Positions 7,329 through 23,004 of a stretch of DNA of 64,000 nt are shown in pieces; the first letter of the stretch is position 1; each line of letters starts with the position of its first letter. Under the pieces are notes generated by a model. The model made no database searches and had not been told where the DNA came from. It saw nothing but the letters and a program-made list of their open reading frames with translations. The DNA comes from Pseudoxanthomonas sp. JBR18 (GTDB lineage: Bacteria; Pseudomonadota; Gammaproteobacteria; Xanthomonadales; Xanthomonadaceae): the NCBI RefSeq assembly GCF_028198165.1, contig NZ_CP116339.1, forward strand, positions 2,177,001-2,241,000, given 5' to 3'. Made by a program: the position numbers and the translations under genes.

Positions 7329-9671
7329 ATGACTAACGATTTCGATCTGACTCCAGATCCCCGCGTTCTTCAAATTCTTGGCGAGATCAATTTAGACCAA
7401 TGGAAGTGTCTCGCGGAGCTAATCGACAACAGCGTGGATGCTTTCATAAATGCGCGCCGTGGTGGAGAGCAGGTTGGGTCGCCGTCAGTATCCATTAGTC
7501 TTCCCACACAAGATCGCGCTGATGCTGCGGTAACGATCCGAGACAACGGTCCAGGGATGACGATCGAGCAATTGGAGAGCGCTGTTCGAGCGGGATGGAG
7601 TGGAAATAATCCACTCGATAACCTTGGCTTATTCGGCATGGGCTTCAATATCGCAACCGCGCGTCTGGGCATGGTCACCGAGGTCTATGCTACCCGCGCG
7701 GGGGACCATGAGTGGACAGGGCTACGAATTGATCTCAACGAGCTGCGTCGAACGCGCAGCTATCAAACGCCACGCCTGACACGACCCAAGTCAGATCCGT
7801 CCTCACACGGAACCGAAATAAAGATTCTGCAACTCAAATCGGATCAGCGTGTTTATTTCGCTAAAAACGCCAATCACCAAAAGATTCGTAGGCAGTTGGC
7901 GCGGGTCTACGCGCCGTTGCTTTTGTCCAAGGATGATTCGTTCGCTCTACAACTGAATGGGCAGAACGTTCAACCGAAGCGCCCCTGCCATTGGGACCCC
8001 GATCGTTCGGTTCAAGGTGGCGATGGCAAGCCCGTGCACGCGGTGGAGGCCTTCGACTACGCGCTCCCGTCCCGACACTACTGCCTGACATGCATGATTT
8101 CTTTCTCAGGGCAGCAAGGCTGCCCGACCGCCAGCTCCGATTGTAAGACCATTGAGGTCAAGCGCCGACTGCACGGTTGGGTGGGGTTGCAGCGTTACAT
8201 GCATGAGGAGGATTTCGGCATTGACATTGTCAGAAACGGGCGTGTCATTGAAGTCCAGAACAAAGACTTGTTCGTGTGGACTGGAGGTGAGAGACCGGAG
8301 CGTGAGTACCCGATTGACGATCAGAGAAATCGAGGGCGATTCATCGGCGAGGTGCACCTCGACCATTGCCGAGTAAGTTACACCAAGGATCGATTCGAAC
8401 GGGATGACGCGTCCTGGGCGGAAATGGTGACCCTGATCAGAGGCGAGGGGCCACTACAGCCACAGAAAGCGCGCGCTTTGGGATTTGAACCGCCCGATGC
8501 TCCACTCTATCGCCTGTTTCAGGCGTTTCGTCGAAGCAGTCCGCAAGGAAAGACTGGACGCTGGTCACGGATTCTCGCTGTTAAGAATAACGAGCGGGCC
8601 ATGGAGATGGCCGATCTATTCAACAAGGGCGATCCGGAATATCAAGCGGACGATAAATGGTATGCGCTTGTCGAGGAGGAGGATCGCGGGATCGTTGGCG
8701 CGACGCCGGCAGCCACCGGCCCCGGGGCTGCGGCACCTGCGGCACCCGACGGTTTCCTTGATGATGGGGGTGCGGTGTCCCCAGGTAATTCAGGCCCGGT
8801 CTCACCGCCTAGTGGTGGCACGGAACCAGGTGAGACGGTGGTCGCTCCTACTCGCCAGAAGTTGCATGAGCTGTCGCGAGTCTATAAACACCCGCTTCTC
8901 AAGGTGGAATTTGCCGTTGAAGCATTCGTGGTTGGTCCCGGAGATCCGGACTTGCCGCGCAAGGCGCCTTGGACCCTGAAGATCGAGGACCCGGGTACAC
9001 GGACGTTCTTGTTTCTCTTCAATCCCGATCATCCGGTGTTCCGTTCCGTTACGATGACGCCGATGGACGCCGTTCTTTGCGAACTGGCATTCAAGACGTA
9101 TGAGTTTCTTCGGGATACAAGTCCCGGTTCGGCCGTGTTCGCTACGATTCTCGCGGACCTACGGGGCGAGTACGCCGATGACACCAAACTCGATCCGAAA
9201 AGCATTATTGCCTTGGCCGACAAGGCAATGCGGGACGTCGCCCAATCCATTTGCACAATTGCCGACGCGAGCGCATTTGGCGCTTTGTTCGCCGACATGC
9301 CGCAATCCGCGCAAGACAAGTTGCGTCGCAAAATCGCGTCGACGGGGATATCGAGTGCTCAGTCTGTTGTTGATTCCGGTGAATTCCTTGCGTACGCCGA
9401 GGCGGCTGATATTCGGCTGTTCACTTGCCGGCATCCGGAGTTGTTCTTTGATGGAAAATTCTGGGCGCAGCCATACGCCAGCCTGGATTATGGTGATGCG
9501 AAAGTTAACGACGAAGCCAGGGCGCGAGTGATCGAACGTTATGCCGCTTACTTGGCCGACGCCGTTTGGCTAGCCTCGCAGAGTCCGCGCGACCTTGACC
9601 GATGTGACAGGGATGAACTGATCCGCGCAACGCTTTCCGTGCGGCTTCTTGGTTCGGACGGAAACACGTGA
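7329..9671 (+). CDS. MutL/MORC-like GHKL ATPase of a restriction-modification system
   Basis: A 780-residue protein with an N-terminal GHKL ATP-binding fold: ELIDNSVDA (residues 30-38), DNGPGM (72-77) and GLFGMGF (100-106). This arrangement is typical of MutL, Hsp90 and MORC ATPases. A central region to about residue 440 is followed by a Pro/Gly/Ala-rich linker (about 455-510) and an unrecognised C-terminal domain. Comparative genomics (Iyer, Abhiman and Aravind on MutL homologues in restriction systems and MORC origins) places such ATPases beside cytosine methylases, Vsr and helicase-nucleases, which is the context here. It probably works as an ATP-driven clamp or loop-forming subunit that licenses the nuclease. 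It starts 20 bases after the methylase stop. Confidence 0.85.
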   Translation: MTNDFDLTPDPRVLQILGEINLDQWKCLAELIDNSVDAFINARRGGEQVGSPSVSISLPTQDRADAAVTIRDNGPGMTIEQLESAVRAGWSGNNPLDNLGLFGMGFNIATARLGMVTEVYATRAGDHEWTGLRIDLNELRRTRSYQTPRLTRPKSDPSSHGTEIKILQLKSDQRVYFAKNANHQKIRRQLARVYAPLLLSKDDSFALQLNGQNVQPKRPCHWDPDRSVQGGDGKPVHAVEAFDYALPSRHYCLTCMISFSGQQGCPTASSDCKTIEVKRRLHGWVGLQRYMHEEDFGIDIVRNGRVIEVQNKDLFVWTGGERPEREYPIDDQRNRGRFIGEVHLDHCRVSYTKDRFERDDASWAEMVTLIRGEGPLQPQKARALGFEPPDAPLYRLFQAFRRSSPQGKTGRWSRILAVKNNERAMEMADLFNKGDPEYQADDKWYALVEEEDRGIVGATPAATGPGAAAPAAPDGFLDDGGAVSPGNSGPVSPPSGGTEPGETVVAPTRQKLHELSRVYKHPLLKVEFAVEAFVVGPGDPDLPRKAPWTLKIEDPGTRTFLFLFNPDHPVFRSVTMTPMDAVLCELAFKTYEFLRDTSPGSAVFATILADLRGEYADDTKLDPKSIIALADKAMRDVAQSICTIADASAFGALFADMPQSAQDKLRRKIASTGISSAQSVVDSGEFLAYAEAADIRLFTCRHPELFFDGKFWAQPYASLDYGDAKVNDEARARVIERYAAYLADAVWLASQSPRDLDRCDRDELIRATLSVRLLGSDGNT

Positions 9672-9672
9672 A

Positions 9673-11349
9673 ATGGAGGGTTACTTTCTCGATTCGCGAC
9701 GGCTTCTCAACGGCTCCTGGCGAGCCTTCGAACGAGATATTGCCCGCCTCCTGGTGCAGAATGCTTTTGAAGATGTTCGCATAGTTGGTGGCTCGGGAGA
9801 TCGGGGCGCCGACGTTCTTGGGGTGAAGAACGGACAGCTCTGGGTCGTCCAATGCAAATTTACAAGTGACAGCTACCCCGATCCTCATGCGGTCGATGAG
9901 GTGGTTGAGGCCTCGCGCTATTACGAGGCGGATCGTCTGGCGATCGCGACATCGCGCGCTTTCGGACCAGCCCTGAATGGGGCGATCGATCGGTATGGCC
10001 GTCTCGGTATCCGCATCGAGTCACTTCCACCTGGTACCCTGATCGACATGATGCGGCGCAGCCCGGAGTATCCGAGGGCGCGGCGCGAACTGCGGGACTA
10101 TCAGGATGACTGCGTTCAGCGCCTTGGCGCCTCGCTTCGAGAGACCGGCCGGGGTCAACTGGTTCTAGCGACGGGGCTCGGAAAGACGGTGGTGATGGCG
10201 GAAACTACCGCTCAATTGCTACGGGACGGAGTGATCGACTCCGGGCGCATATTGGTGCTGGCCGATAAGCGCGAATTAGTTGAGCAACTTCAGCGGGAAT
10301 TCTGGCAACAGTTGCCCAAGAACATTCCCAGCCACCTCCTGGTTGGAGGCGAGCAACCGACATTTTGGGACGGCATTACGTTCGCCACGGTTCAGAGTGT
10401 TCTGCCGCGCCTGGGCGGCTTGCCACAGTTCGGCCTCGTGTGGGTGGACGAAGCGCACCACATCGGTTCGGAAAGCTTCCGTCGCGTGATCGACCAACTG
10501 GCGGCCCCCATGGTGGGTGGCGCAACGGCGACGCCTTGGCGGGGCGACCGTTTCGACATCGACACTGTTCTAGGGCAGCCTGTCGCGAAAATCGGCATTG
10601 ACGAAGGCCTACGCCGGGGCTTCCTGTGCGAGGCGGATTACCGCTTGTTAGCGGACAACGTTGACTGGGATTTCGTGCGCAAGCAATCGCGACACGAATA
10701 CTCAATCAAGGAGCTGAACACTCGCCTGCTCATCCCGACACGTGACGAAGAGGCCGCGCGCGTCATCGCGGACACATTCAAGGCCGAGGCACGTCGCAGC
10801 GTCATCGTGTTCTGCGCCGGCGTTGAACATGCGAAGATCTTTTCCGCCATGCTGCGCCTGTATGGTTTCAAGTCGGCCTATATCACTGGCGAAATGGATC
10901 CCCGTGAGAGGGAGAAGACAATGGCGGGGCTGCGCAGGGGCACCATCAACGCGGTAACGACGGTGGACATCTTCAATGAAGGTGTGGACGTGCCTGACGT
11001 GGATATGCTTGCGTTCATGCGCGTGACGCACAGCCGTCGCATCTTCGTTCAGCAACTCGGCCGAGGCTTGCGCCTGGCGCCGAACAAGGACAAGGTTGTG
11101 GTGCTCGATTTCGTGAGTGATCTACGCCGCATTTCCGAAGTGATTGATCTGCAGAAGTCGATTTCCGGCGACATGGAACGAATCGACTTGGTGGAGCGCG
11201 TGGTCCAATTCTCGGATCAAGGCGCCGGGCACTTCATGTTCGAGTGGCTCCTTGACCAAGCCGATCTCTTCAGTCGAGAGGGAGATGCAAAACTGGAGCT
11301 TCCGGAGTTCAATTTTCCAGTGCCCGCCTCGCCGGGGTCTGTCCAATGA
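9673..11349 (+). CDS. Mrr-like nuclease fused to SF2 helicase
   Basis: A 558-residue fusion. Residues 1-130 form an Mrr-type PD-(D/E)xK nuclease: GSGDRGADVLG with Asp47, then VVQCKF with Gln60 and Lys62. The rest is a DEAD/DEAH-box translocase: Walker A ATGLGKT, Walker B VDEAHHIG, motif III ATATPW and motif VI QQLGRGLR. This is the likely cleavage subunit of the restriction operon. ATG 9673 lies two bases after the ATPase stop; an in-frame TTG at 9649 is a less likely start. The four-base ATGA overlap with the next gene ties it to the same transcript. Confidence 0.9.
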   Translation: MEGYFLDSRRLLNGSWRAFERDIARLLVQNAFEDVRIVGGSGDRGADVLGVKNGQLWVVQCKFTSDSYPDPHAVDEVVEASRYYEADRLAIATSRAFGPALNGAIDRYGRLGIRIESLPPGTLIDMMRRSPEYPRARRELRDYQDDCVQRLGASLRETGRGQLVLATGLGKTVVMAETTAQLLRDGVIDSGRILVLADKRELVEQLQREFWQQLPKNIPSHLLVGGEQPTFWDGITFATVQSVLPRLGGLPQFGLVWVDEAHHIGSESFRRVIDQLAAPMVGGATATPWRGDRFDIDTVLGQPVAKIGIDEGLRRGFLCEADYRLLADNVDWDFVRKQSRHEYSIKELNTRLLIPTRDEEAARVIADTFKAEARRSVIVFCAGVEHAKIFSAMLRLYGFKSAYITGEMDPREREKTMAGLRRGTINAVTTVDIFNEGVDVPDVDMLAFMRVTHSRRIFVQQLGRGLRLAPNKDKVVVLDFVSDLRRISEVIDLQKSISGDMERIDLVERVVQFSDQGAGHFMFEWLLDQADLFSREGDAKLELPEFNFPVPASPGSVQ

Positions 11350-11882
11350 GTGCCGCATTGCCAACCGATATCAGAAATTGTATTCGGCAGAAAATTTGGG
11401 CCAAGGCGGATGAGTTGGATTGGCCAAGAATTTCAGACCTTGAGCGTACCGTTTGGTATGAGAACTGGACCAAAGACAAGGATGTGGGTGGCGTGCTTTC
11501 CCACTTCATGGATGCGAGGAAGGTCCGAGTTTATATCAAGGACTCGCTGCTCAAGCCTTATCTCCGGTCTCGACTGCAGGGCGACTGGGGTCGAGTGCTG
11601 CTCGCCATAAATATGAAGTCGCGTGAGGCTCTTATTAAAAAATCATATGATAAGCCACATGGACGTCAACTTATTGACGGGAAAATTATATGTTGGGGCA
11701 ATAGCAGGGAGTGGAAGTCGATCCTGATATCGGTTTTTGAACGAGCATATCAACTGGACTCAGGGTGTCCCTACGCGGCGGTGCTGGTGGAAAACGGAAA
11801 AACCACGAGCTCCGGAATGCGGGGAATGATTATGGATGCGAGCCAAAAGCTTGGATTACGGCACTTGGCGTGGATTGATTAA
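11346..11882 (+). CDS. Unrecognised 178-aa protein, last gene of the restriction operon
   Basis: Begins at ATG 11346 inside the helicase stop codon (ATGA overlap), so it is translationally coupled to the nuclease-helicase. It is a basic, tryptophan-rich protein with segments such as RTVWYENWTKDKDVGGVLSH, KDSLLKPYLRSRLQGDW and YAAVLVENGKTTSSGMRGM. I see no clear catalytic motif and do not recognise a family. GC content falls in its second half. Its conserved-looking operon position suggests an accessory specificity or nuclease subunit, but that is inference. Confidence 0.7.
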   Translation: MSAALPTDIRNCIRQKIWAKADELDWPRISDLERTVWYENWTKDKDVGGVLSHFMDARKVRVYIKDSLLKPYLRSRLQGDWGRVLLAINMKSREALIKKSYDKPHGRQLIDGKIICWGNSREWKSILISVFERAYQLDSGCPYAAVLVENGKTTSSGMRGMIMDASQKLGLRHLAWID

Positions 11883-12278
11883 CCCCTCAGGGTGGTCAAT
11901 GCGGCACTTTAAAGGTGATGAGATAGGACTGCTTTGGCGTCGTAGAGGTCGCTAAAAATCGGAGTCCAAGATTAGCCCCCTGTTTTTATTGAACGACGTA
12001 CCCGCTACTGAAGGCGGGGGGGCGTCGGTTTGCGCTCCAGATCGTGACCGCAGGATTTCCGTTACATCGGGCCAGAAATGTCTTACAGGACGTCGGGGCC
12101 TTGTCCTACATACCCGCTTACGGGGTAAATGCAACATATATCTGTCGCCCAAGCCATCACACCCGCGGGACGCGTAATCAGATGAGGTCTATTCCAGCCG
12201 GCCTGTTACCAGGTCAGGCGGAACTCTGAAGGGGGTCGGCGGAAGGGATACCCCGCCATCAAGCGCTGGGGCGACAAG
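11883..12278. other. Non-coding stretch after the restriction operon
   Basis: About 400 bases with no convincing gene, ribosome-binding site or repeat. Composition returns to GC-rich toward the right. The last ~80 bases before the terminator at 12279 contain several GC-rich inverted segments, so a small transcript ending there is possible, but I cannot assign an RNA family. Confidence 0.4.
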
Positions 12279-12306
12279 CCCTCCTGTCAAAGGGAGGGTT
12301 TTTTTT
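12279..12306 (+). terminator. Strong intrinsic terminator
   Basis: Stem CCCTCC (12279-12284) with GGAGGG (12293-12298), an eight-base loop, then eight T residues (12299-12306). It is oriented for plus-strand transcription, but the nearest plus-strand gene ends ~400 bases upstream. It may end the restriction operon or an unannotated small RNA. Confidence 0.8.
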
Positions 12307-12314
12307 GCGGCCAT

Positions 12315-12572
12315 TCAAGCTTTGAGCAGCTCGGTGATGTCCACTTCCAGCGCCTCCGCAAGCCGGCCAAGGCCACTGATCGAGATGTTGGTGACACAGC
12401 GCTCAAGCTGCGACACGTAGGTCCGGTGGAACTCTGCGGCTTCGGCCAGTTGCTCCTGACTCAATCCCTTTGCCTTTCTCAAGCGGCGAAGGTTGGTCGA
12501 GACGCGCTTGGCGGCGGTTGAAGGGTCGCGGTGTGGCGTATACGGGCCGGGTGGTTCCAGGACGTGCCACAT
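12315..12572 (-). CDS. XRE-family regulator (helix-turn-helix)
   Basis: An 85-residue DNA-binding protein with a Cro/C1-type helix-turn-helix: TNLRRLRKAKGLSQEQLAEA, FHRTYVSQLERCVTNISIS, LAEALEVDITELL. I chose ATG 12572 because GGAGG lies five bases upstream and the size then matches the paralogue at 12905 (80 aa). ATG codons at 12635 and 12680 would add N-terminal residues but lack a ribosome-binding site. The chosen site is buried in a ten-base-pair hairpin that abuts the start codon. It is a close paralogue of the 12905 protein, and together they probably control the adjacent lasso-peptide genes. Confidence 0.8.
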   Translation of the reverse strand: MWHVLEPPGPYTPHRDPSTAAKRVSTNLRRLRKAKGLSQEQLAEAAEFHRTYVSQLERCVTNISISGLGRLAEALEVDITELLKA

Positions 12573-12596
12573 CTGCGCCTCCGCTGGGAGGCGCAG
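12573..12596 (-). promoter_or_regulatory. Hairpin that sequesters the XRE ribosome-binding site
   Basis: On the minus strand CTGCGCCTCC, loop CAGC, then GGAGGCGCAG form a perfect ten-base-pair stem that ends directly before ATG 12572. The only good Shine-Dalgarno (GGAGG) lies in the 3' arm. If transcribed upstream, this would hold down translation. The caveat is that the stem would be coding if an upstream ATG is used. Confidence 0.5.
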
Positions 12597-12744
12597 AGGC
12601 GCATAGGCGATCTGAGGGCTCGCGTTTGTCGACATGGTGAGGATCAAAGGTGGCGGTGATGATTGGGCATCTTTGGCCATTCGTTCGCTGAAGAGCCGAC
12701 ATGGCTGTGCTTTGGAATGCTAGGCGCTATCAGTGCTTCAGTCT

Positions 12745-13289: not shown

Positions 13290-15926
13290 ATGAAAAAGCG
13301 TTTTGGGGGGAGTCCGTCAGGGTCCGAAGCTGCTACGATCTTCGTGGCGCTGACGTTGTGCAGAGGCACGAATATCAACCGGCCTCGCGTTGTCAGCGCG
13401 CCCGACGCGTTGAACGGCAATGTCCCGACAGCGATAACGGTTCGGGCATGGCCGACGTTCCTTACGGGACGCGGTGCGCAGGGCCTGCCGCCTTGCCAGG
13501 GCAGCGGTGCGGCGCTGCTGCGGGCGGCAGGCCTGGCGCTTGGTCCTCGCGGGTCGGCCGACAGATGGTGGGGTGGAAAGCGGGCGCTGACGCGCAGCGC
13601 CCTTGCCGCTGCCCTGGCGGCACTCCTTCCTTTCTACGGCGCAAGTGCGCAGGAAGCCCAGGCCGACGCCACGCGCGCTCCCGATGCGGCGGAGGACCGC
13701 GCCGCAGACGGGAAGGCCACGCAGCTGGACACCATCGTCGTCACCGGCACCCGCATCAAGGGCGGCACCACGCCCTCGCCGGTGATCACCATCGGCAGCG
13801 AGCGCATCCAGGAAGAAGGCTTCACCGACCTGGGCGAGGTGATCCGCAGCGTTTCGCAGAACTTCAGCGGCGGGCAGAACCCGGGGGTGATTGGGGCGGT
13901 GTCCGGGTTGGGCAATCAGGATCTCACCGGCGGGTCGGCACTGAACCTCCGTGGCCTGGGCGCCGATGCTTCGTTGACGCTCCTCAACGGGCGGCGCATG
14001 GCCTATGACGGGTTTTCCCAGGCGGTGGACATCAGTGCCATCCCGGTGGAGGCGGTCGAGCGGCTGGAGATCATCCCGGACGGGGCTTCGGCACTGTATG
14101 GCTCCGATGCGGTGGGCGGCGTCGCCAACGTCATCCTCAAGCGTGATTTTAAGGGCGTGGCGCTCTCGGCAGGATACGGAGGGGCGACTTCTGGCGGCTT
14201 GGGCACGCGCGAGTACAACGTCACGGCCGGGACCACCTGGGCCAGCGGCGGGCTGATGGCGGCGCTTCGCGCAGCCGATGTCGACCCCATCTCGGCGGAC
14301 CAACGCACTTACACCCGATATCTACCGCAGCCCTACACCATATATAACGCGAGCGATGCGCGTAGCGGTCTGGTCACCGCCCACCAGGCGTTGGGAGATG
14401 GGGCAGAGCTGCATCTGGACGCGATGCGTACCGAGCGCGACATGATCCGGTACATCACCGTCCCGGGTGCCTATTACCGCTATACCCCCCAGACCGAGAT
14501 CTCTGTCGTTGCTCCCAGTGCGACCTTCTTCCTGGGCAGTGACTGGTCTGTCACGGTCGGCGGCGCCTTGGGGCGAAATGAAAATATGGACGTGCGGCAC
14601 TACGTGACCGCTGCGTCTACGCAGCTGATCTCCAGGACGTGCTATTGCAACAAGAGCAACAGCTATGAGGTGGGCTTGGAGGGGCCGCTGTACGCCACGC
14701 CTGCAGGAGAGGTGCGCCTTGCTACTGGCGCGGGCTTGCGCCGGGACGAATTGGCGGTGGTGGCCCACGTGAGCGGACGGCGCTACGGCGGCGGCGAGCG
14801 GGCTCGATTTGCCTACGCGGAGCTGGGATTGCCTGTGGTGTCGGATGCGATGGGCATCCCCGGCGTACGCAGGCTGGAATTCAGTGCTGCGGTCCGAACT
14901 GAGGACTACGACAGCTTTGGCCAAGTGACCACGCCCAAGCTGGGTGTCCTGTACGACCCCAGCTCGGATCTCACCATCAAGGTCTCGTGGGGAAAGTCTT
15001 TCAAAGCCCCGACGCTGCAACAGCGCTATACGAACAGGACAGCCTATCTGTACAGCGCGTCCACCGTGGGCGGGAGCGGATTTCCAGCGGATGCCACTGC
15101 GCTGATGTCCTACGGAGGCAATGCCGACTTGCGGGCCGAGCGTGCGCAGACCCTAGCGGCATCGCTGGCGTTGCATCCGGGTGCCTTGCCGGGGCTGGAT
15201 GCGGAACTGACCTGGTTTGCGATCGACTATCGCGACCGCGTGGTGCAGCCAGTCAATTACATGCAGGCGTTGAGCGACCCGATCTATGCGGACTTTGTGG
15301 AGCGGGATCCAACGCAGCAGCAGATGGACGCCTTGTTGGCGAACTATGGCAGCGCCTTCTACAACTACGCCAACGCACCGTACGATGAAGCGAATGTCGT
15401 GGCGATCATTCGCGACCAGTACGTCAATGCGGCACGTCAGAAGATCCGCGGTGTCGATCTGACCGGAAGCTACCTGCTTGAGCTGGGTAGTGGGACGTTG
15501 ACGGCGCGCGGCTCGGCCAGTTGGCTGGACAGTGCACAGCAGAACAGCGCGGGACAGCCAAAGTTCGACCTGGCCGGCACGCTTTCCAATCCGGCACGAT
15601 TCAACAGCCGCCTTGGGATGGTATGGATTGCCGGCGGTCTCAGCGCCTCGGGCTTCGCCAACTACACCAGCGGTGTCGTCCATCGCCTGGCAACTACGAC
15701 TGAAAAGACGGCCTCGTTTACGACGGTGGATGCAACGCTGCGCTACCAATTTGGCGCGATGCGAAGCTTGCCTGGCGGGCTTTCCCTGGCGCTGTCCGTG
15801 CAGAACCTATTCAACCGGTCGCCGCCATTGCACACGCCGCCTAACGACACCTATGTGCCATATGACGCCACCAACTACTCCGCCATCGGGCGCTTTGCCA
15901 ACGTCACGGTGTCCGCGCAATGGTAG
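13290..15926 (+). CDS. TonB-dependent outer-membrane receptor of the lasso-peptide cluster
   Basis: An 878-residue receptor. A TonB-box/N-terminal segment LDTIVVTGTRIKGG lies at about residues 145-158. The plug includes LNLRGLGADASLTLLNGRRM and SALYGSDAVGGVANVIL, and the barrel ends in an aromatic residue (NVTVSAQW), as outer-membrane proteins do. It is probably the importer for the lasso peptide made next door, allowing the isopeptidase to open it in the cell. ATG 13290 has a good GGAGAGG site. However, the hydrophobic signal-like segment (RSALAAALAALLPFYGASAQ) starts only near residue 100, so the N-terminal ~95 residues are odd. No better start codon lies near the signal. The isopeptidase gene overlaps its end by seven bases. 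Confidence 0.92.
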   Translation: MKKRFGGSPSGSEAATIFVALTLCRGTNINRPRVVSAPDALNGNVPTAITVRAWPTFLTGRGAQGLPPCQGSGAALLRAAGLALGPRGSADRWWGGKRALTRSALAAALAALLPFYGASAQEAQADATRAPDAAEDRAADGKATQLDTIVVTGTRIKGGTTPSPVITIGSERIQEEGFTDLGEVIRSVSQNFSGGQNPGVIGAVSGLGNQDLTGGSALNLRGLGADASLTLLNGRRMAYDGFSQAVDISAIPVEAVERLEIIPDGASALYGSDAVGGVANVILKRDFKGVALSAGYGGATSGGLGTREYNVTAGTTWASGGLMAALRAADVDPISADQRTYTRYLPQPYTIYNASDARSGLVTAHQALGDGAELHLDAMRTERDMIRYITVPGAYYRYTPQTEISVVAPSATFFLGSDWSVTVGGALGRNENMDVRHYVTAASTQLISRTCYCNKSNSYEVGLEGPLYATPAGEVRLATGAGLRRDELAVVAHVSGRRYGGGERARFAYAELGLPVVSDAMGIPGVRRLEFSAAVRTEDYDSFGQVTTPKLGVLYDPSSDLTIKVSWGKSFKAPTLQQRYTNRTAYLYSASTVGGSGFPADATALMSYGGNADLRAERAQTLAASLALHPGALPGLDAELTWFAIDYRDRVVQPVNYMQALSDPIYADFVERDPTQQQMDALLANYGSAFYNYANAPYDEANVVAIIRDQYVNAARQKIRGVDLTGSYLLELGSGTLTARGSASWLDSAQQNSAGQPKFDLAGTLSNPARFNSRLGMVWIAGGLSASGFANYTSGVVHRLATTTEKTASFTTVDATLRYQFGAMRSLPGGLSLALSVQNLFNRSPPLHTPPNDTYVPYDATNYSAIGRFANVTVSAQW

Positions 15927-18091
15927 GGGCAGACGTGACGAGGCCCCCGCGGTGGAGCCTCCGTAGGCTGGCTCCGACACGGGTAGACGCACCGCGAGCC
16001 GGTGGTCGGCTGTTTGGGCTTGCGCTGATCATCGGCATGACGGCGACATCCCATGCCGCAGTCGTGTCGCCAAGGCGCTTGCTGGAAGTGATTGACCTGG
16101 GCAACCCGGTAATCTCCCCGGACGGACGGCAGGTCGCGTTCCGCGCCGAGCAAGCCTCGGTCGAGCGCAATACCGTCGACACCACCTGGTATGTGCAGTC
16201 CCTTGACGGACGCCGGCCACCGCACCGCATATCTGATGGGGGCGCTCCATTACGAGAATTCATCAGTGGAGTGGTTTTGCCTTCCCCGGCGGTATGGTCG
16301 CCTGATGGTCATTGGGTCTACTACCGGGCCCTCATCGATGGCCGGATCTCTGTCTGGCGTGCCGCTGCAGACGGCACGGGCGCACGCGAAGTCACGAAGG
16401 ATCCGGCTGACGTCCGTCGCTTTGTCCTGGCATCAGACGGCGGGACATTGAGATACGCCGTGGGAGCGACACGCGAAGAAGTGACTCGTGCGGAAGAGTC
16501 TGAATACGCGCGCGGTGTACATATCGACAAGACCATCAATGCGGGGGCGGGGCTGTTCCGCTCCAGTCTCGCAGGGGGAAGGCCTGCGACACAGCGCTTC
16601 GTGGACGACTGGTTTGGCGCTGGGCCCCTCTTGTTCGAGTATGCCGATCAGTGGCGCGAGGTGAATCTGCGTACGATGACGACGCGCGACGTCCCTGCCT
16701 CTGGCACGCCGCCGCGCGCGATGCAGCCGAGCGATGTTGCCGTCACCGGCCTGCCGACGCCGAGCAAGATTGCGGTCAATCCTGGCGACGGACGTATTGC
16801 GGTGATGCTACCTCCACAGCCGGATGACCAGGCGGAGGACAGTGAGCCACGATTGGCCCTTTTGCCGAATCGTCGGTCATCGCAGGCGATACCTTGCACG
16901 GATCCACTATGCATGAAGGCACGCATCAGTGATATCCGGTGGAGGCCGGGGAGCGATGAGCTGCTCTTTACGTCTATCAACTACCGCAATGGACGCGCGC
17001 AGGAGATCCACGCGTGGAATGTCGTCACCGGCGCAGTGAGAGCAGTCGTGCTGGCGGATGGTCTGGTCAGTGGAAGTCAGCGCTACTGGGACGTCCCATG
17101 CGCGACGTCGTACGACGCGCTAGTTTGCGTGGCGGCCGAAGCGGATCGGCCGCCACGGCTGGAGTCCATCGATCTGACGGCCGGCGAAAGGAGTGTTCTA
17201 TTTGCGCCCAACAAGGGGCTAGAGCTGGACATCGCCAGCACTGCGCCTGCAAGGCTGATCCGTTGGCATGATGGGCAGGGCCGCGAATTCACCGGTTACC
17301 TTTACGAGGCCCGCCGTCTCGGCCCCGGCGCTCCGCCCCCATTGTTTGTGACGTTCTATACCTGTTACGGATTTCTTCGTGGGGGAGTCGGGGACGAATG
17401 GCCACTGGCGAGTCTGGCCGAAATGGGCATCGCCGCGCTTTGCATCAACGCAATCCCGGATTCAAGCAAGGACTTTGCTGTTCGTGTCGACCAAGGTCGG
17501 GCAGCTGTGGAGAGTGCCGTGGCCTTTCTCGCCAAGGAGGGCCGCATCGACGGGAATCGTGTTGGGATGGGTGGCCTCAGCTATGGGGCAGAGGTCACCA
17601 TGTGGACGCTTGCGAACTCCAAAGCAATAACGGCAGCCTCAATCAGTAGCGTCTCGTCGTCCCCCAGCTACTACTTATTCAACAGCCTAAGCGAAGCATT
17701 TCGCACAAAGGTGATGGAGCTCTGGCAATTGGGTACGCCGGAGGAGACGCCGAATGCTTGGCGTCAGAACTCGCCCGCGTATCAACTCGACAGGATCCAC
17801 GCGCCGATTCTTTTTCAGTTGCCCGAGCAAGAGTATCGCATGACGCTGGAATACCTGTATCCCCTGATTCGAAGGCATCAGGGGGACGCTTACGTATTTC
17901 CTGATGAGCCACATATCAAGTTCCAGCCTCGGCACAAGCTTGCCGTCTATGAGCGGAATCTGGACTGGTTTCGCTTTTGGCTGCAGGGCTACGAGGACCC
18001 GACGCCAGAAAAGTTTGACCAATACCGCGCATGGGAAGAATTGAATACGAAGGGGGGGCATGTCGATGAAAAGAGGCATGAGCCCTCGTAG
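15920..18091 (+). CDS. Lasso-peptide isopeptidase (S9 prolyl-oligopeptidase-like)
   Basis: A 723-residue protein with an N-terminal signal-like hydrophobic segment (about residues 30-46), a WD/beta-propeller-like middle (NPVISPDGRQVAF, AVWSPDGHWVYY) and a C-terminal alpha/beta hydrolase. The nucleophile motif is GGLSYG with Ser554, and His665 lies in DEPHIKF. The acid residue is probably Glu636 or Glu638 (LPEQEYRM). A Glu in this role and these spacings agree with the characterised isopeptidase AtxE2, as I recall it. Such enzymes hydrolyse the Gly-Asp/Glu isopeptide bond of lasso peptides and linearise them. The gene overlaps the receptor gene by seven bases, and the two form one operon convergent to the biosynthetic genes. 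Confidence 0.9.
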   Translation: MVGADVTRPPRWSLRRLAPTRVDAPRAGGRLFGLALIIGMTATSHAAVVSPRRLLEVIDLGNPVISPDGRQVAFRAEQASVERNTVDTTWYVQSLDGRRPPHRISDGGAPLREFISGVVLPSPAVWSPDGHWVYYRALIDGRISVWRAAADGTGAREVTKDPADVRRFVLASDGGTLRYAVGATREEVTRAEESEYARGVHIDKTINAGAGLFRSSLAGGRPATQRFVDDWFGAGPLLFEYADQWREVNLRTMTTRDVPASGTPPRAMQPSDVAVTGLPTPSKIAVNPGDGRIAVMLPPQPDDQAEDSEPRLALLPNRRSSQAIPCTDPLCMKARISDIRWRPGSDELLFTSINYRNGRAQEIHAWNVVTGAVRAVVLADGLVSGSQRYWDVPCATSYDALVCVAAEADRPPRLESIDLTAGERSVLFAPNKGLELDIASTAPARLIRWHDGQGREFTGYLYEARRLGPGAPPPLFVTFYTCYGFLRGGVGDEWPLASLAEMGIAALCINAIPDSSKDFAVRVDQGRAAVESAVAFLAKEGRIDGNRVGMGGLSYGAEVTMWTLANSKAITAASISSVSSSPSYYLFNSLSEAFRTKVMELWQLGTPEETPNAWRQNSPAYQLDRIHAPILFQLPEQEYRMTLEYLYPLIRRHQGDAYVFPDEPHIKFQPRHKLAVYERNLDWFRFWLQGYEDPTPEKFDQYRAWEELNTKGGHVDEKRHEPS

Positions 18092-18201: not shown

Positions 18202-19926
18202 TCAGCGGGCCTGGTTCCTGACCCAGTTCTCCGTCGCACAAATGTCGAGGATCCGGATGAAAGTGGTATCACGGGGTGCCTGTTCCCGCTCAAAAATCTG
18301 CGCCAGCTTGGAGCGATCTATGAGACCATTCGAGTGTAGTTCGCCATCGGCAAGGAACCGCTGCATGGCATGTCTGTGGCGAGCGTATATACCCGCGAGA
18401 ACGCCGGTGTAGGAGCCCTTGCTGCGCCGCTCGATAATGCCGGTCGGCAACTGGTCGGCAAAGGCATCGCGCGCAATGGCCCGATTACGACCATGTGAGA
18501 TCCACATCCACGATGGGACCTTCAGGCAAGCCTCCATAACTGGTTGCGACAAGAGAGGGAAGTGAATCACTCGACCGGCGCCACGAGGCGTGGCGGGCCT
18601 GAAAAGTTGTGTGCTGATGAGCTGTCTGATTTTTTCTCGATCACCCGGCAGCGCGTGCGGAGGTGCATTCATCCAGGGATGGTCGCCAGAGAGGCCGGAC
18701 AGCGATGATCCGTAAAGGAGGGTGGTGTCACGCTTCCAGGTCGATGGCCGCCGCTGTCTGATCTTCTTATAGGTCAGCACTGCTGCTTGCCAGATGGTGC
18801 ATTGATGGAGCGAGGAGAGGTCTTGCACTGCGGCGATGCCTTTCGCAACGCCCCGCTCCAGAAAGGCATCAGCTGCTGGCGCTGCGGTGCTGAGGTAACA
18901 GAAGATGCTGTCGCCGCCGCCGCCAGAAAAGAAGCTGTCTACCTTATAGCGCTCCCCCGCGGCCTCCCAGGCTTCGTTAACTGCGTGCTGCAATATGCCA
19001 ATGGCTGGGCGCGTTGAGGAAGGCGGTTCACGATACTCAAAGCCGATCTTGTCGAAGTCTATGTCGATCGAAGACAACGGCTTTCCAAGCATATCCGTCA
19101 TCAGGCGGGCGTACGGGCGTTCATCGGTACCGGCTACTGTCATCACCAGCGTGCAGAAGGTCGCACTATCAGCGAACTCACGCAGGCAGGTTGATACGAT
19201 GGATGAATCCAGCCCACCAGAGAGCTCGACGACGAACCGATGCTGCAGCTTCGCCAGAGCCTTAACTGCCATGGTCACTGCTTGCCTTACTTCGTAGGCT
19301 GCTTCAGTGGTGTCGGTGTGGCGAGCCGGCCGCTCCGTGAAATGCCAAGGGGACCAAGCGAGATGGGTCGAAGCTCTTTGTGCGCGGATCCGTAACTCGA
19401 TACCGGGTAGCAGTTCCGAGATGTTTGCAAGGCCTGTGCGGGATGTCTTGAAGTATGGGAACTCGAGGATATGAGCGATTGTCTGCCAGTCGATTTCCCG
19501 CTTGTAGATGCCAAGTTCAACGGCCAGACTAATGTCTGAGCTCACGAACCCGCACCTGCCGACGATTGAGTATACGCAGGGCACCGCGCCAGAAGGATCT
19601 CGCAATAGGGTCACTTGTACGGCACTGGCGTGGATTGCCAGGTACTGTCCCCACATCTTTGTCAGCAGATGCTCATGCGCCCTTTCGGCCGGCCCACTAA
19701 GTGTGGCGGGGGCGGACGTGAGCTGTAGGCCGTCGCTGTTGAAAACTTGTCCGATGATCATCGCGTGTGCATGTAGACGAATTATCGGCGTGTCAGGAGA
19801 CACATAGACTCGAGCAACGGCCGATTCGAGTCTGCATGCCATGCCCATCGCGCGTACGCGTTCGTCTAAAGACTTATCGTATCCGGCGCGCCCGTCGCTG
19901 AGCAGCATGATGTAAGCGTGCTTCAT
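18202..19926 (-). CDS. Lasso-peptide cyclase (asparagine synthetase-like C protein)
   Basis: A 574-residue asparagine-synthetase homologue that adenylates the ring-forming side-chain carboxylate and closes the macrolactam. The ATP pyrophosphatase loop is SGGLDSS (residues 236-242). The N-terminal half resembles a glutamine amidotransferase fold but begins MKHAYIMLLS with no Cys2, as expected for lasso C proteins that use an amine already present. I chose ATG 19926 because it overlaps the stop of the B gene (TGATG, one shared base). A longer frame to 20007 would run into B. Third gene of the A-B-C operon. Confidence 0.92.
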   Translation of the reverse strand: MKHAYIMLLSDGRAGYDKSLDERVRAMGMACRLESAVARVYVSPDTPIIRLHAHAMIIGQVFNSDGLQLTSAPATLSGPAERAHEHLLTKMWGQYLAIHASAVQVTLLRDPSGAVPCVYSIVGRCGFVSSDISLAVELGIYKREIDWQTIAHILEFPYFKTSRTGLANISELLPGIELRIRAQRASTHLAWSPWHFTERPARHTDTTEAAYEVRQAVTMAVKALAKLQHRFVVELSGGLDSSIVSTCLREFADSATFCTLVMTVAGTDERPYARLMTDMLGKPLSSIDIDFDKIGFEYREPPSSTRPAIGILQHAVNEAWEAAGERYKVDSFFSGGGGDSIFCYLSTAAPAADAFLERGVAKGIAAVQDLSSLHQCTIWQAAVLTYKKIRQRRPSTWKRDTTLLYGSSLSGLSGDHPWMNAPPHALPGDREKIRQLISTQLFRPATPRGAGRVIHFPLLSQPVMEACLKVPSWMWISHGRNRAIARDAFADQLPTGIIERRSKGSYTGVLAGIYARHRHAMQRFLADGELHSNGLIDRSKLAQIFEREQAPRDTTFIRILDICATENWVRNQAR

Positions 19927-20600
19927 CAGATCACCCTGATGGGCGTGTGCGCATTGGCGACAGTGAGCGTCTCGTTCAAGGCGAGGTCTCCTGCTTGTAT
20001 CCAGCAATGCGCTCCAAACGGCTGGTGGGTGACGCCGAATACGATGCTGGCCGGAAGTCCGCGGCGCGAGAGGTAGCGAAGCAGTGCAAGTGAATCCAGT
20101 AGGCAGTTGCGTTCGATGGGGACGTAACGCCTCGTGTTGGCGAACCGGATTGCCGCATCGATGGCTTGTGATTCAAGTCGGATCGGATCTTCAGAGCTGA
20201 GTCTGTTCTTGCGTCGCTGCGTCGCCACGCCCCACAAGACGGTTTTCAGGCTGCTGGCTTTGAGCCATAGACGGGTCGTGTAGACAAGCCAAAAGGTCTC
20301 AGGCAGGCCCGCGTGGCGAGATGAGGTGACTGTTGTAGGTAGCTCCAAGGCACTTCGCGCTGGAGGCTGGTGACCTGCTTCCTGGTCGCACCGGAACCGA
20401 TGGTCAGCTTTGATTGGAATCCGTTGGCTGGAGAGGAAGAAAAGCAGCTCTGGAGCCAGATCGGCTTGCTTTAGATATGCCCGAAGAGCAGCTTCGAGTC
20501 GTTGATTCAGTCGGAAATATCGATCTTGGGCGATATCTAGAAGAATGATCGTTCCGTCCACTTCACAGAACGAAAGATCCTTGCTGAGAAGATGGGGCAC
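19926..20600 (-). CDS. Lasso-peptide B protein: PqqD-like RRE plus transglutaminase-like leader protease
   Basis: A 224-residue fused B protein. Residues ~1-80 form a PqqD-like recognition element that binds the leader peptide (SFCEVDGTIILLDIAQDRYF). The C-terminal part is the transglutaminase-like cysteine protease that removes the leader, with Cys166 (ERNCLLDS), His198 (GAHCW) and Asp205 (GDLALNE) as the catalytic set. The GTG start at 20600 is chosen because GGAGAA lies five bases upstream; a longer frame to 20708 would overlap the precursor gene and cross the hairpin at 20618-20647. Fusion of both parts in one protein is the proteobacterial form. The order A-B-C differs from the A-C-B order common in several proteobacterial clusters. 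Confidence 0.92.
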   Translation of the reverse strand: MPHLLSKDLSFCEVDGTIILLDIAQDRYFRLNQRLEAALRAYLKQADLAPELLFFLSSQRIPIKADHRFRCDQEAGHQPPARSALELPTTVTSSRHAGLPETFWLVYTTRLWLKASSLKTVLWGVATQRRKNRLSSEDPIRLESQAIDAAIRFANTRRYVPIERNCLLDSLALLRYLSRRGLPASIVFGVTHQPFGAHCWIQAGDLALNETLTVANAHTPIRVI

Positions 20601-20617
20601 GATGGTTCTCCAAGGAA

Positions 20618-20647
20618 GGGCGCGCACCGTAGTGCGAGTGCGCGCCC
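20618..20647 (-). terminator. Intercistronic hairpin between lasso precursor and B gene
   Basis: Minus strand GGGCGCGCAC (from 20647), ten-base loop, GTGCGCGCCC (to 20618): a perfect ten-base-pair GC-rich stem eight bases after the precursor stop. The following TTCCTT is a poor U-tract. It probably acts as a leaky attenuator or 3' stabiliser that keeps precursor mRNA in excess over the enzyme mRNA. Confidence 0.7.
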
Positions 20648-20655
20648 TGCTTTTG

Positions 20656-20802
20656 CTATTCCTCAGAGATACCTGGGAACGCGATGCCGCCGACGCCGCC
20701 CGGCTCATTGGTGCCTTCGGCCCCTTGGGTCACCACACTGGCGACGCCGAGCACGATGACCTCTTCCTGCGTGTTGCTGCGGATGTTCTCGTTGCTGTCC
20801 AT
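20656..20802 (-). CDS. Lasso-peptide precursor (A), predicted xanthomonin-like core
   Basis: A 48-residue precursor from ATG 20802, with AAGGAGA six bases upstream. Leader: residues 1-26, ending ASVVTQ, so the conserved Thr of lasso leaders is at position -2. The predicted core has 22 residues and begins GAEGTNEPGG. Gly1 would join the side chain of Glu7 in a seven-residue ring, with Pro8 next to it and a glycine-rich loop. The C-terminus is PGISEE. A seven-membered ring and a PGISEE-type end are features I recall of xanthomonins from Xanthomonas; rings are more often eight or nine residues. Glu3 is too close to Gly1 to be the acceptor. Mature C-terminal trimming is possible. Product and function are predicted, not shown. 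Confidence 0.88.
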   Translation of the reverse strand: MDSNENIRSNTQEEVIVLGVASVVTQGAEGTNEPGGVGGIAFPGISEE

Positions 20803-21009
20803 CTCAGTCTCCTTCGGATGCGTCATGGCCAATCCATGACCAGGCCAGCCTAGGAGCGGGGATTTTGTGTTTTCAAATAACTTTTGTTGTGCACTCACGT
20901 AACTCTCTGGTTGCGTGACGCACATCGTTTTCCGGATGCATCGGGCGCTGCAGCGATGCCGATTGGGCCGCTGCTCGATCGGGCGTTGGCGCCTGGGGGA
21001 TGGCGTGGA

Positions 21010-21636
21010 TCAGTGCAGCTGGCTGCGGCGCTCGGCCATGTGCGCCACGATGCACGGCACCAGCTGCCTCCTGCGCTGGTGATACGCGCGCAGCGTGCTG
21101 TCGAGGCGTGGCATGTCGTGGGCCTGCCACGCCCCCTCGAGGTCCGCGAGCTCCTCGGCGGCGTGGTCGATGAGCGCATGCTTGGCGCGGCGGATCGCGG
21201 CCAGGCGGTCGTTGGTCCGCTTGATCGCATGGTGCAGCGCGCCGTGTCGCGCCTGGCGGCCGATGGTGTCGAACAGCTTCCAGGTCTGCTTGGGGATGTC
21301 GTCGTCGCCTGGCATGGGGGCCGGTGCGGCTTCAAGCGGCCTGGCGGCAGTGAACTCGCAGGCCATGACCAGCAGCCGTTCCATCCAGTCGTACAGGTCG
21401 CGCAGCTGCATTTCGGTGGGCATGGGGACGTGGAAGCCGGCCCGCGGCTGGTCGCAGAGCATGCCGTAGCCGACCAGGCGGGACAGCGCGAATCTCACGG
21501 GCGTCAGGCTGGTCCTGTACTCCCCGGCGACGGTGGCCGGATCGATGCGCTGGCCCGGGAGATAGCGGCCGGCCTGCAGGTCGCGCCTGATCTGGCCGTA
21601 CAGATAGGAACTCTTGGAGTGGATCGCATTCATCAT
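21010..21636 (-). CDS. GntR-family transcriptional regulator
   Basis: A 208-residue protein with an N-terminal winged helix: YLYGQIRRDLQAGRYLPGQR, IDPATVAGEYRTSLTPVRFA, LSRLVGYGMLCDQPRAGFHV. A helical, FCD-like effector domain follows. It lies 207 bases upstream of the lasso precursor gene and in the same direction, so it may influence the biosynthetic operon or may simply mark the cluster edge. The C-terminal domain is short for FCD and its ligand is unknown. Upstream sequence is RAYT debris. Confidence 0.8.
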   Translation of the reverse strand: MMNAIHSKSSYLYGQIRRDLQAGRYLPGQRIDPATVAGEYRTSLTPVRFALSRLVGYGMLCDQPRAGFHVPMPTEMQLRDLYDWMERLLVMACEFTAARPLEAAPAPMPGDDDIPKQTWKLFDTIGRQARHGALHHAIKRTNDRLAAIRRAKHALIDHAAEELADLEGAWQAHDMPRLDSTLRAYHQRRRQLVPCIVAHMAERRSQLH

Positions 21637-21995: not shown

Positions 21996-22128
21996 GGAGC
22001 TGACTCTCGTCACCGCCCAAACGTGATGACCCAGAACTTTGAAGGCTGCATCATCTGCGACTGTCAGCACATTCGGTCGGCACTGCCAGGTCCTAAGATC
22101 TTCATCTTCATGGAAGGGGAGCAAAGCA

Positions 22129-23004
22129 ATGGGTAATGTCGGGAATAAGCCACTGCCGTTGGTCGAGCAGGTGCTGCTCAAATCCGGAGTCGATACAAAA
22201 AGCGGGCCGGATGCCGCGACGCTTCAGGGCGTCAAGGAATTCGTCAGGTCCGATACGCAGCATGGATACGGCTCCGATACCTCGATTGTTGGTCGATATC
22301 AGGCTTATTCCAGTCTCATGAAAGACATCGGCATGAGCCCGGAGCGCCGCCGTGAACTTCTTTCGCCCCTTTACGACAACATGAATCGAGGCGGGCAGCT
22401 TAAAGACGCCGGCGTCGTCTCGCCGCGGTTTCAAGAAACTCAGCCTGAGTCTTCCGCCGCACGAGAAAGCAACCTGGATCCAAAGGTCCTGGCTGAACTC
22501 AAGCCCATGTTGAATGAAGAGCAAAGCATCTTCAGGATGAAGGGAGTCACGCTGGAGCAGTGCGAGAAGATGCCAGAAGGCGATCTGAAAAACGCCATGC
22601 AGGCGCAGGTGGACTTTCGGGACGCGAGCCAAAACTACTGGCCGAAGCCCAACGGGGCTTCTACGCCCAGGCCTTCGTCAGATGTTCTGGACAGGTTGAA
22701 GGAACAGATCGCACATCTGGATGATGAAAAAATAATCAGCATGGGGTTGGCCCATGCGACAAATAAGGCCCCGATGGAAGCCGTACGTCGGTCCGGCGAT
22801 TTGGTGGTCGCTGCTGCAGCGCAGGGCTATAAATACACGGATGGCGAAGGAATGCAGACGCTTCTGCAGGCCGGGCAACGCTTCAACATGGCGATTGAGC
22901 CGGTCAACACCCTGGCCAGTCGGGGCGTGGACACCCAGATGGCGATATCTCACGGTTTCGACGGACAAGCAGAGGTTGCTGCGACGCGCCCGAAACAAAT
23001 GTGA
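22129..23004 (+). CDS. Hypothetical protein, 291 aa
   Basis: Starts at ATG 22129 after GGGGAG; an upstream in-frame ATG at 22039 lacks such a site. A soluble, mostly helical protein with many polar residues. Segments include FVRSDTQHGYGSDTSIVGRY, YDNMNRGGQLKDAGVVS and DLVVAAAAQGYKYTDGEGMQ. No signal peptide or membrane segment. I looked for the C-terminal recruitment motifs of Xanthomonadaceae type IV effectors (GLxRIDHV and the FAVQG block) and did not see them. It lies alone between RAYT fragments, so it may be an acquired gene. Function unknown. Confidence 0.6.
   Translation: MGNVGNKPLPLVEQVLLKSGVDTKSGPDAATLQGVKEFVRSDTQHGYGSDTSIVGRYQAYSSLMKDIGMSPERRRELLSPLYDNMNRGGQLKDAGVVSPRFQETQPESSAARESNLDPKVLAELKPMLNEEQSIFRMKGVTLEQCEKMPEGDLKNAMQAQVDFRDASQNYWPKPNGASTPRPSSDVLDRLKEQIAHLDDEKIISMGLAHATNKAPMEAVRRSGDLVVAAAAQGYKYTDGEGMQTLLQAGQRFNMAIEPVNTLASRGVDTQMAISHGFDGQAEVAATRPKQM

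Follow-up and report, generated by a model that had tools for sequence, protein, structure and literature searches.

The window, a stretch of 64,000 nucleotides from Pseudoxanthomonas sp. JBR18, carries a lasso peptide locus whose precursor gene A encodes 48 residues (20802..20656, start 20802, stop 20658..20656); the first-pass annotation had placed this gene correctly, and it lies on the minus strand. Written as leader|core, the precursor is MDSNENIRSNTQEEVIVLGVASVVTQ|GAEGTNEPGGVGGIAFPGISEE, with a leader of 26 residues (20802..20725, minus strand) and a core of 22 residues (20724..20659, minus strand), and a Shine-Dalgarno sequence AAGGAG is found 5' of it at 20814-20809. The protein passes the family models Pfam PF24178 (Subterisin; E-value 1.1e-10, 41.8 bits, cut-off 27) and NCBIfam NF033522 (benenodin-family lasso peptide; E-value 4.1e-10, 39.4 bits, cut-off 33), and relatives likewise carry, upstream of B, precursors whose leaders follow this pattern. 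By these two matches and the same-pattern relatives the open reading frame is, as judged from its sequence, a real gene beyond chance. A search of solved structures with the precursor gave no match at E-values up to 10.

The sequence bears out the features noted earlier: Thr at -2, Gly1, Glu7, Pro8, a run rich in glycine, and PGISEE at the end. As in class II lasso precursors, there is Thr at -2, a small residue at position 1, an Asp or Glu at positions 7-9, and no cysteine. The acidic residues of the core are at positions 3, 7, 21 and 22 only, and lasso peptide rings are described as closing at positions 7-9 (PMC9266682); within this range only Glu7 would therefore be able to close. The predicted ring segment Gly1-Glu7, GAEGTNE (20704..20724, minus strand), thus contains the lone acidic residue at core positions 7-9, and at the level of sequence the ring closer sits where a seven-residue ring has it. 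Among 71 family precursors, Val at leader position -3 is peculiar to that of the window; 40 have Glu there, 27 Asp and 3 Ala.

B (19926..20600, minus strand, GTG start) combines a C-terminal transglutaminase-like peptidase with an N-terminal leader-binding region. It matches NF033537 (72.2 bits, cut-off 33), while the N-terminal region has a weak PqqD-type match below the cut-off, and no solved structure was matched at E-values up to 0.1. All 53 B proteins aligned, that of the window among them, have Cys166 and His198. The stop codon of B is overlapped by the ATG of C (18202..19926, minus strand), an asparagine-synthetase-like macrolactam cyclase with an SGGLDSS motif and an Asn_synthase domain (86.6 bits, cut-off 21), which among solved structures has a weak match to beta-lactam synthetase and no other. 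C stays under every cyclase cut-off of NCBIfam: the lasso cyclase model gives 58.3 where 525 is required, and the best match 97.5 where 300 is required. Its assignment therefore relies on its fold, its place in the gene order and homology. With B (leader binding and protease) and C (cyclase) both adjoining the precursor, the arrangement is that of class II. The genome has one match each to B and C.

Convergent to A-B-C are the plus-strand genes for a lasso peptide isopeptidase of the AtxE2 family (15920..18091; NF033523, 620.4 bits, cut-off 400) and a TonB-dependent receptor (13290..15926; Pfam plug and barrel above cut-off). Isopeptidase residues Ser554, Glu638 and His665 align with AtxE2 Ser527, Glu610 and His638 (numbering counted from the alignment), which we take to be the catalytic triad of AtxE2; the serine is the residue by which two AtxE2 database entries differ. 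PMC9266682 gives the triad of such isopeptidases as Ser-His-Glu/Asp. In 54 of 56 relatives the matching part starts no earlier than listed residue 97, and the true start of the receptor therefore probably lies downstream of the listed one. B, C, isopeptidase and receptor, which the first-pass annotation had assigned to the locus, are all open reading frames. Upstream of the precursor we also find a gene for a GntR-family regulator (21010..21636, minus strand), which was absent from that annotation's gene list.

Isopeptidase clusters have an almost constant layout, with GntR before the precursor and a TonB receptor and a sigma/anti-sigma pair downstream, according to PMC9266682. The window has the AtxE2-family isopeptidase with its aligned triad, the TonB receptor and GntR before the precursor, and no ABC exporter was found among 14 neighbouring open reading frames scanned. 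No sigma/anti-sigma pair was found by the receptor among the frames examined, which include approximately 7.3-12.7 kb and 22.0-28.3 kb. The region beside the lasso receptor (7329-12680) contains probable defence-type genes. These encode a GHKL ATPase-like protein; a helicase carrying an Mrr-type nuclease domain, for which the best PADLOC match is a type IV restriction enzyme (1.8e-42); a protein that matched no family; and an HTH control-like protein. A 321-residue open reading frame (22039-23004, plus strand) adjoins the cluster and has no Pfam, NCBIfam or PADLOC match.

The gap between A and B contains a predicted RNA hairpin (20617..20648, minus strand); it folds at -27.4 kcal/mol, compared to -17.5 for shuffles (z -3.7), with no terminator-like T-run found on the minus strand. 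Through this hairpin the precursor may be made in larger amounts than B and C. A sigma-70 scan yielded no promoter passing the threshold; the sequence TTGAAA-N18-TAGGCT (20876-20847) was picked out by eye and scores under it. Rfam gave no match between 20500 and 21100 at E-values up to 1.

Ring size in related loci

Using B as the query against 395 family genomes, we obtained matches at 57 places in 48 genomes and took all 57 loci; an isopeptidase is present in 53, a GntR gene in 53 and a TonB receptor in 57. Ring size was counted over the 52 family loci with an isopeptidase match and a recognised precursor, which hold 49 distinct cores. Two loci (L075 and L087) have no recognised precursor and four (L087-L090) no isopeptidase match; one precursor call, in L084, proved false and was left out, and L003 was omitted as a duplicate of L040. 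In L071 the match to C, after B, is spread over two frames; this gene therefore appears split, with the precursor intact.

Glu7 is present in 39 of the 49 distinct cores, 22 of which have no acid at position 8 or 9; for the remaining 17, which carry a further acid there, ring size is assigned by analogy with xanthomonins. In eight cores position 8 is acidic and position 7 is not; the other two combine Asp7 with Glu8. All cores begin with Gly (51/51, a count that takes in alphaproteobacterial loci), and the Thr-2/Gly1 register is common to the isopeptidase-bearing relatives. The C-terminal end is ISEE, ISED or ISDE in 25 of 49 distinct cores, and a G-[ILV]-[SAT] motif lies within the last six residues in 47. 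The first-pass annotation had called ring size seven rare, a view that gives way before the Glu7 count and a close published precedent (PMC4675943): as predicted from their cores, seven-residue rings are common in the related Xanthomonadaceae loci.

What could set the ring size? Three database precursors (P0002, P0003 and P0004) pair leaders very like that of the window with cores that have Glu8 in place of Glu7, and so leader likeness does not determine it. Among the database matches listed (the best 120 of 937 and the best 120 of 245), no cyclase could be assigned to P0002. We built a tree of 50 C proteins, leaving out those of L071, L086 and five alphaproteobacterial loci, on which 39 rows count as sevens (among them those in which position 8 or 9 is acidic too) and nine as eights, the two Asp7-Glu8 rows being excluded. 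The window C groups with five others in a clade supported at 100/100, and all six cores of this clade have Glu7 with no acid at 8 or 9. As this placement does not use the window's own core, it gives independent support for the Glu7 ring call. The nine Glu8 rows form a clade of three (100/100) and a clade of four (91/84), with two unplaced. Ring size changes four times on the tree, compared to 6-9 times in 500 label shuffles; with eleven near-identical xanthomonin rows reduced to one, the figures are four and 5-9. These observations support the view that ring size tracks cyclase lineage. Cyclase residue 258 (numbered as in the window C), a possible ring-size position, is Cys in 29 of 39 Glu7 rows and in none of nine Glu8 rows; being the best of about 600 columns, following the tree and confounded by ancestry, it is a lead only.

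An inverted repeat before the precursor

Between the GntR gene and the ribosome-binding site of the precursor lies an inverted repeat, GTCATGG-ATTGG-CCATGAC in the minus-strand reading (20822..20840), which ends 19 bases 5' of the start codon and is the only exact copy in its own genome. By a rule of at least 6 of 7 pairs, a spacer of 2-8 bases and an end 10-24 bases before the start, a repeat precedes 56 of the 60 first precursors, or 51 of 55 when the five alphaproteobacterial loci, whose repeats have other stems, are set aside; the exceptions are L076 and L088-L090. Because pairs 1-7 were used in row selection, their pairing is no test; the test is the dinucleotide-shuffle control, in which 40 rounds of shuffled upstream regions gave a mean of 6.3 of 60 with a repeat (range 4-14). 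Among 51 distinct forms the spacer measures 2-7 bases (3-5 in 43), and paired stem changes are seen (GTCATGG/CCATGAC, GCCATGG/CCATGGC, GCCACGG/CCGTGGC).

Across the loci analysed, 45 occurrences of the pattern lie upstream of a precursor, and two lie at other sites. Of the 48 genomes in which B has a match, 33 contain an exact GTCATGG-N3-7-CCATGAC somewhere, versus 48 of the 347 in which it has none (counted from rows); a backwards control pattern is seen in approximately 32 of 395. Genome-wide, the pattern is not limited to lasso loci, the copy in G347, for example, lying outside its lasso locus. In two-precursor loci (for example L043-L049, L072 and L091-L095), hairpins of other sequence also precede the second precursor under a loose rule applied with no control; in L058 this rule found none before the second precursor gene.

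Is the repeat an operator for the GntR regulator or a hairpin in the mRNA? The stem sequence is conserved and a GntR gene lies alongside in 53 of 57 family loci, both of which point to an operator, while the variable loop length favours a hairpin. Past the stem, pair 8 is formed in 26 of 51 forms (17.7 expected, 44 of 5000 shuffles) and pair 10 in 22 (17.0 expected, 184 of 5000 shuffles), and pairs 9, 11 and 12 are not above the shuffle expectation. Pairing thus scarcely extends beyond pair 8, as suits an operator. Comparing the repeat variants by eye with the recognition-helix residues of the GntR proteins gave no clear match. We retain both readings. A narrow text search of the literature found no description of the repeat among the matches listed, a thin basis on which it may be a new element.

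With somewhat less than even confidence, we suggest that in the Xanthomonadaceae seven-ring closure is common and set by cyclase lineage, with few switches between 7 and 8, and that the clusters share a dedicated GYCATGG-N3-7-CCATGRC control element. Ring size would then not be set by the leader or the neighbouring core, and the element, placed at the 5' end of the transcript that carries the precursor, would either be recognised by the cluster's GntR protein or work as an mRNA hairpin.

Proposed pathway and relation to known lasso peptides

From gene content, motifs, homology and conservation we infer the following chemical steps, threading, uptake and regulation. B would bind the leader and cut after Gln26; C would activate the Glu7 side chain with ATP and join it to the Gly1 amino group, so that a lactam ring of seven residues would enclose the prethreaded tail, from which ISEE is perhaps trimmed later. 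The TonB receptor would import a ligand, plausibly the lasso peptide, and the isopeptidase would reopen the ring of the threaded peptide. The GntR regulator would control the precursor operon, probably at or near the inverted repeat.

We consider it highly likely that the locus is a complete isopeptidase-type class II lasso cluster with a Gly1-Glu7 ring, TonB uptake, isopeptidase reopening and GntR control, and its enzymes very probably knot the neighbouring precursor peptide into a lasso with a seven-residue ring. The family models, the triad aligned with AtxE2, the invariant Cys166 and His198 of B (53/53), the all-Glu7 cyclase clade of six and the way ring size follows the cyclase tree argue for this reading; the Gly1-Glu7 ring first proposed for this precursor is supported as a prediction. 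This reading is further supported by xanthomonin-type cores with the same leader pattern and tail, which the same search recovered from Xanthomonas-type genomes, by the published seven-ring prediction for a Stenotrophomonas acidaminiphila homologue (PMC4675943), and by the GntR, TonB and isopeptidase layout described as the norm in PMC9266682. On the other hand, the Glu8 cores of P0002-P0004, Val at leader position -3, the scores of C below the NCBIfam cyclase cut-offs, the sigma/anti-sigma pair absent among the frames examined, and the further acid at 8 or 9 in 17 of 39 Glu7 cores weigh against it.

The cluster could instead be decayed or silent and make no product, which would agree with the failure of the scan to find a sigma-70-like promoter. 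We regard this as improbable, since the frames are open, the catalytic residues checked are retained, and among the database matches listed there are a B protein 97% and a C protein 94% identical to those of the window, both on a contig of length 6,902, which implies a close copy of the cluster elsewhere. Slightly less probable still is a core that is cut and cyclised with its tail unthreaded, leaving a branched-cyclic peptide. Threading is unreadable from sequence; on this view a seven-residue ring would need plugs that are small, and the loop PGGVGGIA, rich in glycine and to all appearance very flexible, would be unable to hold. Against an unthreaded product, the locus has an isopeptidase homologue with an aligned triad, of a family reported in PMC9266682 to be active solely on threaded peptides, and Ile14 and Phe16 could act as plugs. 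A ring of eight or nine residues, closed elsewhere or following a leader cut at another residue, is very improbable: the close-leader homologues P0002-P0004 do have Glu8, but the window core has no Asp or Glu at 8 or 9, all six cores of its cyclase clade have Glu7, and it shares the Thr-2/Gly1 register of its isopeptidase-bearing relatives.

How does the predicted lasso peptide compare with known ones? Xanthomonins I-III, which Hegemann reportedly described in 2014 as having a seven-residue ring, share this ring size (predicted in the window) and the gene family. The cores GGPLAGEEIGGFNVPG and GGPLAGEEMGGITT, presumably xanthomonin I and II, are present in Xanthomonas-type loci with the window-type leader pattern, tail and isopeptidase. 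The window differs from xanthomonins in core sequence and in having one recognised precursor compared to two per cluster. The label xanthomonin-like given in the first-pass annotation therefore holds for ring size and gene family and not for the cyclase, which is outside the xanthomonin cyclase clade; its remark that the core departs from xanthomonins is right, as this is not a GGPLAGE-type core.

A close counterpart is StcA of Stenotrophomonas acidaminiphila ZAC14D2_NAIMI4_2, for which a prediction published in 2015 gives a ring of seven residues "as in xanthomonins" (PMC4675943). Like the window precursor it has the leader EVIVLGVASV-TQ, Gly1, Glu7-Pro8 and a PGISEE tail; its core, GILQGNEPMGGEPVPGISEE, differs in ring residues 2-5 and in the loop, and for both peptides the seven-residue ring is a prediction only. 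Among the literature matches listed, no title reports isolation of the S. acidaminiphila product, and Pseudoxanthomonas is found together with lasso peptides in two papers, each with a single mention of the term. The alphaproteobacterial benenodin/astexin clusters share isopeptidase, TonB receptor, GntR and the precursor family model with the window; in contrast, the ring of benenodin-1 has eight residues (PMC13352647) versus the predicted seven, and among the window frames examined there is no sigma/anti-sigma pair. By its sequence, the window peptide is a new predicted member of a family known from related bacteria.

As a single addition to the predicted seven-ring scaffolds, the peptide is of less use than the survey of its relatives. 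The 22 distinct predicted cores of this survey that are closable only at position 7 (within 7-9), together with the related Glu8 cyclases, make a set for finding the ring-size determinant of the cyclase. The function of isopeptidase-type lasso peptides is called enigmatic in PMC9266682, and the shared upstream element offers a handle for finding the condition that induces such clusters.
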